From Methylobacterium aquaticum (GTDB lineage: Bacteria; Pseudomonadota; Alphaproteobacteria; Rhizobiales; Beijerinckiaceae), in NCBI RefSeq assembly GCF_016804325.1, contig NZ_CP043627.1, forward strand, positions 5,129,001-5,193,000: DNA of 64,000 nt, written 5' to 3'. Positions 28,168 through 32,236 of the stretch are shown piece after piece. Below the pieces are notes generated by a model. The model searched no databases. It was not told the DNA's origin and saw nothing but the letters and a program-made list of their open reading frames with translations. How positions within the stretch are numbered: the first letter of the stretch is position 1; each line of letters starts with the position of its first letter. The position numbers and the translations under genes were made by a program.

Positions 28168-28238
28168 GGCTTGGTTTACACGCTCGACGATTCTCTCAGA
28201 GTCTGTTGGATTGGCTCGAGCACTTACTCCCACACACG

Positions 28239-28362
28239 ACCTCATCCTGAGGTGTCAGTCGATTGAAAATCGACTGACCTCGAAGGAGGGCTCCAGGGAT
28301 CGCGAAGACCTCTGGAGCCCTCCTTCGAGGCTCCTTTCATTCGCACCTCAGGATGAGGTCGC
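28239..28362. repeat. Large palindromic repeat (family B)
   Basis: Outer ends CGACCTCATCCTGAGGTG and CACCTCAGGATGAGGTCG are inverted, with an inner inverted pair TCGAAGGAGGGCTCCAG / CTGGAGCCCTCCTTCGA. An additional small palindrome TCAGTCGATT/AATCGACTGA lies inside the left arm. The unit can fold into one long cruciform. It differs in sequence from family A; a fragment of the outer end is also present near 3970. Confidence 0.8.
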
Positions 28363-28423
28363 GAGAGGGATAGGACAGGTCCTCGCAGCTAGATTTTCGC
28401 AAGTCAAACAGACTCTCACCCTC

Positions 28424-30133: not shown

Positions 30134-30279
30134 CCTCCACCGTCATCCCGGGGCCGCGAAAGCGGAACCCGGGATCCATAAACGCTGACGTTGGAGAAAG
30201 AATCGGAGCGGGTTCCGCCTAGTCCTCAAATGCCGGCGGTTATGGATCCCGGGTTCTCGCCTTCGGCGAGCCCCGGGAT
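30134..30279. repeat. Dispersed palindromic repeat, inverted pair, interrupted by IS110 (family A, copies 8-9)
   Basis: Left arm about 30134-30192 (GTCATCCCGGGGCCGCG ... GAACCCGGGATCCAT). Right arm about 30231-30279 (GGATCCCGGGTTCTCG ... GCCCCGGGAT). In the other copies the right arm continues GGATGACG; here it breaks after GGGAT at 30279 and the missing GAC reappears at 31490, on the far side of the IS110 element. Confidence 0.85.
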
Positions 30280-30299
30280 TGTCTGTTGGTTCGGTTGTA

Positions 30300-30495
30300 G
30301 AGTGATCCCGTTCCGCCTCGGCGGGATGCCCGGTCCGGATGGCCATCCGGACCGGGCGCGGATCGGTCGAGCGTCCCGGGATGGGGCTCGCGCCCGTCGT
30401 CATCTGGCTCGCCGGTCCGCATTCCTCGCCACGCTTGATGAGTTGCCTGGGCCTCTCCTCGACGCCCGCAGACAATCCCAAGCGGCCTCAGGATA
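30300..30495 (+). ncRNA. Candidate IS110 bridge RNA
   Basis: The 5-prime part has a perfect 30-base palindrome (30328-30357, GCCCGGTCCGGATGG plus complement), able to form a stable stem. Downstream, four segments match the element's junctions in the order expected for target and donor loops. CCCGGGAT (30375-30382) equals the left target. CGTCATC (30398-30404) is complementary to GATGACG of the right target. TTGATGA (30435-30441) equals the right IS end plus flank. CAGACAATCCC (30469-30479) is complementary to GGGATTGTCTG at the left IS end. Exact RNA ends are not known; assignment is by comparison with the known IS110 mechanism. Confidence 0.6.
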
Positions 30496-30502
30496 GACCC
30501 GG

Positions 30503-31483
30503 ATGACCCAACCCGCCACCTCACCCACCCGCTTCATCGGAGCCGATGTCGGCAAAGCCGAGATCGTCCTCCACGACAGCCGCGGCAACGCTCGTCACAC
30601 CATCCCCAACAAGCCCAAGGACCTCGCCGCCTTCGCCGCCAAAGCGGACCTCGATGCGACCTGCCTCGTCATCTGCGAAGCCACCGGCGGCTACGAGGAT
30701 GCTCTGCTGGCCGCTCTCCTCGCCGTCGGATGCCCCGCCCACCGCGCCGACGCCCGCAAGGTCAAGGCGTTCATCCACTCCTACGGCACCCTCGCCAAGA
30801 CCGACGCCCTCGACGCCAAGGCCCTGGCGGCTTACGGCCGGGAGCGCCACACCTCCCTGGCCCGCTGGCAAGCCCCTGATCCCGATCAGGAAAACCTCCA
30901 GAGCCTGGTGCTCACCCGCGCCGACTTCGTGGCTCAGCGCACCGCCAACCGCAATCGTCTGGCCGCGCCGGGATCTGGACCCGTCCAGGCTTATCTGGAA
31001 ACCCTCATCACCGCCCTGTCCGAGCAGATCGAGGCGATCGAGGAGGCGATGGCCGAGACCCTGCGCAAGGCCGCCGCGCTCAGCCGGGCCAAGAAGGCGC
31101 TGACCTCGATCAAGGGCATCGGCGACACCTCTGCCATCATCCTGCTCGCCCTGATGCCCGAGCTCGGCCGTATCGACCGGCGCCAGGCGACGTCCCTGGC
31201 CGGACTCGCCCCGCATCCCAACCAGAGCGGGACCACCGAGCGCTACCGACGCACAAAGGGCGGACGGCCCGAGATCAAGCAGGCTCTGTTCCTCCCCGCC
31301 CTGACCGCTACCCGCTTCAACCCCGTGCTCAAAGACACCTACCAGCGCCTCATCGCAGCGGGCAAAAAGCCCATCGTGGCGATCGTCGCCATCATGCGAC
31401 GCCTCCTCGTCATCGCCAACGCACGCCTGCGCGATGCCTACGCCGAGGAGCAAAAAATCGCGCTCGCAACCGAAGCCAACTGA
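30503..31483 (+). CDS. IS110-family transposase (DEDD recombinase)
   Basis: A 326-residue recombinase. The RuvC-like DEDD domain shows FIGADVGKAEIVLHD (first D), LVICEATGGYEDAL (E) and LAKTDALDAKALAAYG (DD). The C-terminal Transposase_20 domain has LTSIKGIGDTSAIILLA and LAGLAPHPNQSGTTERYR, with the catalytic serine in QSG, then ALFLPALTATRFNP. All residues needed for activity appear present, so the element may still be active. It fills the element after the non-coding left end. Confidence 0.93.
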   Translation: MTQPATSPTRFIGADVGKAEIVLHDSRGNARHTIPNKPKDLAAFAAKADLDATCLVICEATGGYEDALLAALLAVGCPAHRADARKVKAFIHSYGTLAKTDALDAKALAAYGRERHTSLARWQAPDPDQENLQSLVLTRADFVAQRTANRNRLAAPGSGPVQAYLETLITALSEQIEAIEEAMAETLRKAAALSRAKKALTSIKGIGDTSAIILLALMPELGRIDRRQATSLAGLAPHPNQSGTTERYRRTKGGRPEIKQALFLPALTATRFNPVLKDTYQRLIAAGKKPIVAIVAIMRRLLVIANARLRDAYAEEQKIALATEAN

Positions 31484-31932
31484 GTTGATGACCGTCCGGG
31501 CGGGCATTGGTTCAGCGCGAAGGCGAACCGATCCCGCATCCCGAGCCGCATCAGGGTCTCAATGGTCGGCATCGTGGCCTGTAGGTCGAGGCGCGAGGGA
31601 CGAGCCGGCACGAGGGCGAGATCCGCAGCCTGCATCGCGAGGTTGCCACCAGTCGAGGATACGCCTGCGGTGTCGAGGATCGCGACGGTGTAGCCCTCTG
31701 CCTTCAGAGCCTTGAGGATGGCAGGCAGCTCGCCGAGCCGGTCGGCGGGCAGCCGATCAACAGCAGGCGCATCCGCTGTGCGGGTGTCGCCCCAGGCGCC
31801 AAGCGATCCCTGCGGGTCAAGGTCAAGGGCGACGACCTTCTCGCCAGCCTGTGCGGCAGCAACGGCGAGGGAGGCTGCCAGCGTCGTTTTCCCGACGCCT
31901 CCCTTCTGCGTGACGAGTGTCCGAGTCCGCAT
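31438..31932 (-). pseudogene. ParA-family ATPase, 3-prime truncated at the IS110 end
   Basis: The first 147 residues are ParA-like: VTQKGGVGKTTLAASLAVAAA (deviant Walker A), VVALDLDPQGSLGAWGDTR, AILDTAGVSS and FAFALNQCPPGR. Intact relatives continue for about 60 residues more. Here the reading frame enters the IS110 element at 31489 and ends with 17 unrelated residues. Partner ParB/ParG is not present. It is the plasmid-type ParA without an N-terminal DNA-binding domain, so this DNA probably came from a plasmid or integrative element. The truncated product is unlikely to work. Confidence 0.8.
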
Positions 31933-31945
31933 GTCTCACCTGTGA

Positions 31946-32050
31946 TGCTGTAGCGCTGTAGCAGGTAAATGCCACAGTATGAAAGCACTTCGAACGCATG
32001 ATGTTACCGTGCTAAGGCACCGTAGCGCTACAGTGCTACCCTGCCACAGC
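31946..32050. promoter_or_regulatory. Repeat cluster upstream of parA, possible operator or centromere site
   Basis: Motifs GCTGTAGCGCTGTAGCAGG (31947-31965) and CGTAGCGCTACAGTGCTACC (32021-32040) share GTAGCGCT and GTAGC/GCTAC half-sites. GCCACAG occurs at 31971-31977 and 32043-32049. Such clusters of short repeats before a plasmid-type parA are commonly the binding sites of the partner protein. The remaining bases up to 32236 show nothing recognisable. Confidence 0.4.
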
Positions 32051-32236
32051 ATGGTGCTCCATATCGATGCGCCCCGGAACGAGCGTGAAGCTGCTCCTCG
32101 CGCTACCGGTCGGAGCTGACGGCACTCCTTCCGCGCGGTCTCGGCTCGATCGTCGATCCATCGCCGAACTTCGTCATCATATCTTCCGCTTCAGTGACGC
32201 CAGCCTCGTCCGGCGATAGCCATCGGAGGCTGGCGA

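Follow-up and report, generated by a model that had tools for sequence, protein, structure and literature searches.

The window, that is, the whole stretch of 64,000 nt of Methylobacterium aquaticum DNA analysed here, contains an insertion sequence with one transposase gene, which lies next to a host palindromic repeat on its left and a truncated parA gene on its right. The features at this locus are listed below; a slash within a sequence marks a junction or insertion point, or separates the two strands of a stem.

30280..31489, + strand: IS110-group element of 1210 bp, present in five near-identical copies in the Methylobacterium aquaticum genome
30503..31483, + strand: IS110 family RNA-guided transposase of 326 aa (DEDD and Transposase_20), assigned by Pfam, NCBIfam and PDB relatives
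30490..30495, + strand: AGGATA, the likely ribosome-binding site of the transposase gene, assigned by eye and present in most alignment rows
30141..30279, no strand assigned: palindromic repeat pair (REP-like, 'family A') with the outer end CCCCGGGAT/GACG as the insertion target; only the portion left of the element remains
30278..30279, + strand: left copy of the AT core common to target and donor, from the junctions of five copies
31482..31489, + strand: right end GAGTTGAT, comprising left donor GAGTTG and core AT and overlapping the stop codon
~31490..31932 (wider span 31438-31932), - strand: N-terminal part of parA, interrupted at CGCCCGGGAT/GACC

The transposase has an N-terminal DEDD domain (PF01548) and a C-terminal Transposase_20 domain (PF02371) and scores 184.9 bits (cutoff 140) against NF033542, the NCBIfam equivalog for RNA-guided transposases. 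Homologues of known structure are the transposases of ISCro4 (PDB 9t56, 96.8 bits over residues 9-310), an element compared here by its transposase only, and of IS621 (PDB 8wt6, 90.4 bits), a distant relative with an alignment that spans both domains. Members of the IS110 group have a long non-coding left end and a short right end, and this arrangement is reversed in the IS1111 group. In the window element the left end measures 223 nt (30280-30502) and only 6 nt lie 3' of the stop codon on the right. Domains, end layout and scarless insertion all fit, and the element was assigned to the IS110 family, IS110 group.

A search of the element's own genome yielded 13 matches, which comprise five full copies, five palindrome hits and three short pieces. 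The copies differ by a single SNP (G30325T, in two of five). The left junction is CCCGGGAT/TGTCTG in every one of the five copies, and the right junction is GAGTTGAT/GAC, followed by G in four copies and by C in one. The first element base is found directly 3' of the AT core at 30278-30279 and the last bases are the AT at 31488-31489. Insertion is scarless, without duplication beyond the short core, as the joined flanks of the five copies equal clean sites, provided that copies 1 and 5 are assumed to have swapped flanks. The left flanks are palindromic-repeat ends in copies 1-4 and coding sequence in copy 5. A DNA search of 99 genomes, the own genome included and mostly of the same genus or order, listed no full copy beyond the own genome, and the best match elsewhere was partial and 74% identical (G016). 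Plasmids gave no match by protein (E<=1e-60) or megablast, and none of 12 matched phage records reached 80% query coverage. Two short stretches of the own genome (L006 and L012; G000:C1:2214559-2214643 and 3756162-3756201) are 85-88% like the element's right part and probably are relics of older copies.

The first-pass annotation had described four guide segments within the left end, in the order target-left, target-right, donor-left, donor-right and preceded by a perfect 30-base palindrome. All four strings were found in this order, and the palindrome lies at 30328-30357. The guides as assigned after the present analysis are as follows.

30375..30382, + strand: left target guide (LTG) CCCGGGAT, CCCGGG plus core AT, covarying with the left flank in relatives
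30398..30404, + strand: right target guide (RTG) CGTCATC, complementary to GATGACG
30440..30445, + strand: left donor guide (LDG) GAGTTG, which recurs at the element's right end
30469..30476, + strand: right donor guide (RDG) CAGACAAT, with its complement ATTGTCTG in the left end

LTG, RTG and RDG were retained, whereas the donor-left string TTGATGA (30435-30441) was replaced by GAGTTG. The TTGATGA match borrows two bases (GA) from the target flank, outside the element; the string equals the own right-end 7-mer in 8 of 25 rows, whereas the GAGTTG-type segment agrees with the own right end in 24 of them. Bases 30435-30436 of TTGATGA, moreover, sit in the GCTT/AAGC stem of the donor loop. The string CAGACAATCCC (30469-30479) had been read as complementary to the left IS end. 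This is correct for the part complementary to GATTGTCTG and not for the last CC, as only the former fits the circular donor GAGTTGAT/TGTCTG and the CC has its match solely in the left junction after integration. Core AT pairs in LTG, RTG and RDG of the window element; the core slot of LDG reads CC here and AT in 12 of 30 left ends.

Dinucleotide shuffles of the left end (5000) contained the left-target 8-mer in 132 cases, the right-target 7-mer complement in 294, TTGATGA in 38, the 8-nt RDG complement in one and its 11-nt form in none. Since the target-guide strings are fairly frequent by chance in this GC-rich left end, they are not decisive alone. No shuffle contained the full ordered set of 8-nt LTG, 6-nt RTG, corrected 6-nt LDG and 8-nt RDG. 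The observation in a single copy is suggestive, not decisive, and the weight is carried by the order, RDG and the relatives.

Relatives were collected by tblastn (best 80 of 135 kept) and by further protein searches at E<=1e-60, which matched 4 of 385 and 8 of 397 genomes with the own genome counted in both. The resulting 30 usable left ends, window included, were aligned as A2. Among the 80 kept loci 23 were parsed (L014-L034, L070, L074), with L082 and L088 outside this set; L029, L033, L070 and L074 had no usable left end by the patterns applied, L132 and L136 duplicate L025 and L028, and extra copies in G000, G583 and G740 stand outside the 30. The 8-nt left flank is missing for L025 and L030 (2/30) and the right end for L015, L026, L031, L032 and L034 (5/30). 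Manual anchoring was applied to L025 and L133, the latter being absent from alignment A3 (29 rows). The nearest named relative among the best 80 of 135 is L014 (87% protein identity). All evidence is comparative sequence and several relatives are metagenome bins. The rows are kin and hence not independent, an effect that collapsing, the tree and neighbour pairs lessen but do not remove.

LTG states, among them CCCGGG, CTCGCA, CTCGCG, CTCAGG, CACGGG, ACAGGA, CGGAGG, CGTAGG and GCGGGG, follow the left flank across lineages. In 28 elements LTG agreed with the element's left flank at 156 of 168 positions, and in 21 of them the agreement was perfect; the shuffled mean was 86.9, with 0/20000 shuffles as high. 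The same held after collapsing to 17 unique pairs (90/102) or 13 guide states (74/78), each 0/20000. The match comprises the six bases upstream of the core; position -7 agrees in only 5/27. RDG matched its own end over six bases at 162/180 positions in 30 rows (12 perfect; 0/20000, and 14/20000 for unique pairs). The covariation of guides with flanks, which the first-pass annotation had proposed as a check, is thus found among the relatives for LTG, and RDG likewise varies with its end. RTG agreed with four bases of the right flank at 88/100 positions in 25 rows (1/20000), and the two bases beyond GACG were no better than shuffles (12/44 matches). LDG equals the right end of its element at 149/150 positions over 25 rows, with 24 rows perfect (24/20000 shuffles as high). 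Collapsed to unique pairs, RTG (29/40; 1984/20000 as high) and LDG (23/24; 1753/20000) lose significance because their variation is confined to few lineages. Guide and flank have both changed to GATGAGG in L024 and both read GATGACA in L142, L143, L145, L146 and L147. LDG departs in two lineages only, as GACTTG in L134 and GGGTTG in L133, each in step with the right end. Covariation of RTG and LDG provides weaker support than that of LTG and RDG.

Mismatching relatives are L133 (left flank), L014 and L016 (right flanks) and the pair L143/L148, which is crossed by one base. The right flanks at odds with RTG read TTGA/CCGGGGG in L014 and TTGAT/TGTGACGG in L016, where a rearranged flank, an unusual target or a mutation are alternatives. 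The left flank ends in AT in 30/30 rows; at this place L020, L024 and L030 have guide bases other than AT. By eye, LTG mismatches amount to 0-1 of six bases in the extra G740 copies (L144, L149, L151, L153) and to 1-2 of six in those of G583 (L150, L152, L154), with L152 also mismatching in the core. On the 30-row transposase tree, LTG requires 17 changes for 15 states (minimum 14; shuffled mean 20.5), and CTCAGG occupies three separate places. Nine disjoint, hand-picked pairs of near neighbours show 16 target differences; the guide follows at 11 of these and differs once without a target difference.

The target CCCGGG-AT-GACG forms the outer end of an abundant host palindromic repeat, and the uninterrupted 12-mer CCCGGGATGACG occurs 72 times in the own genome (reversed control pattern: 0). 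It had been predicted that this lineage is programmed to enter many-copy family A repeats. Four of the five left flanks and the 72 sites bear this out; the fifth insertion site, CCCGGGATGACC, lies inside a parA gene. The C-terminal part of parA flanks the copy at 4.42 Mb (G000:C1 near 4422116-4424136; L098, L138). Joining the right flank of the window copy to the left flank of the 4.42-Mb copy restores the frame of a 214-aa ParA, which covers positions 3-203 of 203 of NF041546 with 135 bits (below the cutoff of 180), compared to positions 3-149 and 104.3 bits for the truncated protein. One original target was therefore most likely the non-repeat site CGCCCGGGATGACC, and its fit suggests that a short match, rather than a palindrome, sets the target.

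A strict test for a 7-nt inverted copy identified 9 of 35 left flanks (0.16 expected), with six more too short and bulged repeats missed by the test. Exact 12- and 13-mers were counted in 13 genomes. Besides the own genome, CCCGGGATGACG was found 32 times in M. platani, which has the guide of the window element, 22 times in a Methylobacterium with guide CTCGCGAT, eight times in Inquilinus and 0-2 times in the remaining genomes. CTCGCAATGACG occurs 524 times in Inquilinus (guide CTCGCAAT), 19 times in a Novosphingobium MAG and once in an Asaia MAG, both with guide CTCGCAAT, and 0-3 times elsewhere. For ACAGGAATGACG, 36 and 33 sites were counted in two hosts with that guide, none in the third (L032), in which LTG is one base off its flank and RTG reads ATGAGG, and 0-2 elsewhere. 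GCGNAGGATGACA occurs six times in G740 and 0-3 times elsewhere. Among the nine host-guide pairs counted, six have at least 19 sites, G740 has six sites, and the remaining two have none or one. The guides of L016, L024, L027 and G583 stand outside this set.

The predicted transcript of the left end was folded from the relatives, with the following result.

30309..30485, + strand: predicted bridge RNA of ~177 nt, with both ends placed from the fold, the promoter-like sequence pattern and the RNA length published for IS621
30328..30357, + strand: 5' stem-loop (the perfect 30-base palindrome); all 6 alignable pairs have compensatory changes and 82.0% of cells are paired
30358..30420, + strand: target-binding loop with outer stem GCGGATCGG.CGAG/CTCGCCGGTCCGC and apical stem GGGC/GCCC
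30433..30483, + strand: donor-binding loop with outer stem GCTT/AAGC and apical stem GGGC/GCCC; pairs mostly conserved, little covariation

RNAalifold analysis of the transcript part of A3 (29 rows) yielded a 5' stem-loop followed by two hairpins, with LTG/RTG in the internal loop of the first and LDG/RDG in that of the second. Covariance folding of related left ends had been suggested beforehand as a check, and the structure proved conserved, with compensatory changes in 14 of 23 pairs (shuffled mean 10.0; 1/500 shuffles). Cells were paired in 92.0% versus 77.7% in shuffled alignments, and 98 versus 33.7 cells were changed on both sides. The covariation score was 0.366 versus 0.129 shuffled (0/500) and 0.065-0.117 with slid partners, a control that is biased toward the fold because the consensus was derived from the same alignment. 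Two-sided changes are absent from helix 5, the donor apical stem, and confined to a single pair in helix 4, so that the donor loop is supported chiefly by conservation. The single sequence folds with a z of -2.30, and a search of Rfam (E up to 1) assigned no family to the left end. The tip of the 5' stem-loop reads TGGCCA or a near variant in many main-clade rows of A3, beyond what pairing requires, and may be a protein contact.

A candidate promoter was recognised upstream of the predicted transcript.

30298..30303, + strand: predicted -10 box TAGAGT (4/6), with a -35-like TTGATT formed across the joined ends

The -35-like TTGATT (4/6) exists only when the right end, whose TTGAT is its source, is joined to the left end, and is then spaced 17 from TAGAGT. 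Across the 30 left ends, with a common right end assumed throughout, the mean match to TATAAT peaks at this spacing (2.97/6); other spacings from 10 to 25 give 0.63-2.40, the runner-up being 2.40 at 15. The predicted circle promoter of the window element is weak (8/12 consensus bases). A scan of the integrated form detected no promoter at a threshold of 9/12 and is uninformative either way, because this threshold would also miss the predicted circle promoter. The junction promoter is a prediction from a sequence pattern.

Taken together, the left end almost certainly codes for an IS110-group bridge RNA that guides the transposase to CCCGGG-AT-GACG. By sequence comparison, this reading is supported by the anatomy, the five sites, guide covariation with targets and donor ends, the conserved fold and the promoter-like pattern at the junction; excision, transcription, binding and catalysis are inferred from published work on IS621. 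By analogy, scarless excision would join the right and left ends and create the promoter TTGATT-N17-TAGAGT, from which the ~177-nt RNA with its 5' hairpin, target-binding loop and donor-binding loop would be transcribed. The target-binding loop would present LTG CCCGGGAT and RTG CGTCATC, and the donor-binding loop LDG GAGTTG and RDG CAGACAAT. Transposase and bridge RNA would then hold circle and target together, and the two would be recombined at their common AT core.

For IS621 of E. coli, the sections of Durrant 2024 (PMC11208160) drawn on here describe an RNA encoded in the left end with a 5' stem-loop and target and donor loops, the guide order and strand logic, a circle-junction promoter, REP targets, core pairs in all four guides and guide-target covariation over 5,511 target pairs. 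The first-pass annotation had claimed a match to this published logic, and the agreement extends to RNA layout, LTG/RTG/LDG/RDG order, strand logic, a REP target, a promoter-like pattern where a predicted circle-junction promoter would lie, and guides that covary, within a conserved structure, among relatives. The window element differs from IS621, as described there, in having the core AT instead of CT, a 5'-side guide of six bases plus core instead of eight or nine bases, and an LDG core slot that is often unpaired, whereas in IS621 the core takes part in all four guides; it also targets another REP family. REP-specific IS110 elements (ISPpu9, ISPpu10, ISPa11 and ISRm19, the last from Sinorhizobium) are reported in the part of Tobes and Pareja 2006 (PMC1525189) consulted. 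Their likeness is one of description, and that description predates the discovery of bridge RNAs. Guidance by a bridge RNA is already in print for IS110/IS621, and the window element is a further example.

Could the transposase instead read the palindromic repeat itself, as a structure or protein-read motif, with the left-end matches as a by-product? The insertion sequences of other families that also enter REPs are not known to use guide RNAs. Four of the five left flanks here are palindromic repeats, and REP insertions by other families are on record in the same part of Tobes and Pareja 2006 (PMC1525189). However, the parA insertion has CCCGGGATGAC in common with the others but no palindrome in its flank, and the guides change with their targets among relatives and sit in the loops of a conserved fold, which makes recognition of the palindrome very improbable.

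Still less credit is given to two further explanations. Matches between left end and flank might be due to chance or shared ancestry, with repeat pieces captured at the element's birth and both inherited; the left-target 8-mer does arise in shuffles and the related rows are not independent. Yet the 17 LTG state changes on the transposase tree, with the guide mostly tracking the flank, the collapsed LTG pairs at 0/20000 and the sharp end of the match past six bases and core leave this account a negligible probability. An equally slight chance is given to the idea that the left end chiefly serves the transposase gene, either as its structured leader or as a regulatory RNA of the attenuator or antisense kind. 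It does lie directly upstream of the coding sequence, and small RNAs are thought to modulate ISPpu9, as cited in the sections used of Durrant 2024 (PMC11208160), but the joint variation of the guides with both their targets and the donor ends would go unexplained. Regulation may be a second role of the left end.

With the left end read as a bridge RNA, this alphaproteobacterial IS110 clade, on balance, probably tracks host palindromic repeats, RTG being near-fixed on the common ATGACG end and LTG being quickly rewritten to the repeat stem. If so, a switch of repeat family would take about six changed RNA bases. The 15 LTG states in 30 elements provide a natural, independently derived guide-target series for a programmable recombinase family. 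Some neighbouring elements have guides 1-3 bases apart, in step with their targets, and natural retargeting of such elements becomes directly testable. The parA site represents a natural off-repeat insertion consistent with the guide.

The parA gene is split between two copies (1 and 5) that lie 737 kb apart in inverted orientation. This suggested a one-step 737-kb inversion between them, for which an asparaginase gene is expected beside the gene right of copy 5. Among 79 genomes of the genus, 61 with a match and the own included, none was listed with the asparaginase and copy-5 fragments adjacent on one contig; the fragments are 1.9 Mb apart in G024 and on different contigs in many draft genomes. 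The inversion was left uncorroborated, and the split may stem from misassembly through the repeat.

Upstream of the left end, at 28226-28373, a strong inverted repeat with CCTCATCCTGAGG-type ends was noted, and the site type CTCAGGATGAGG is the one entered by the element in L024. Four Rfam hits to this region, weak microRNA matches below the gathering score, are probably spurious. An open frame of ~104 codons adjoins the C-terminal half of parA and looks, from the frame itself, like a ribbon-helix-helix partition partner; together with the split gene it suggests a broken partition operon. Visual inspection of 31958-32060, immediately upstream of the truncated parA, showed short recurring words, GTAGCGCT among them, that could be a centromere-like site.
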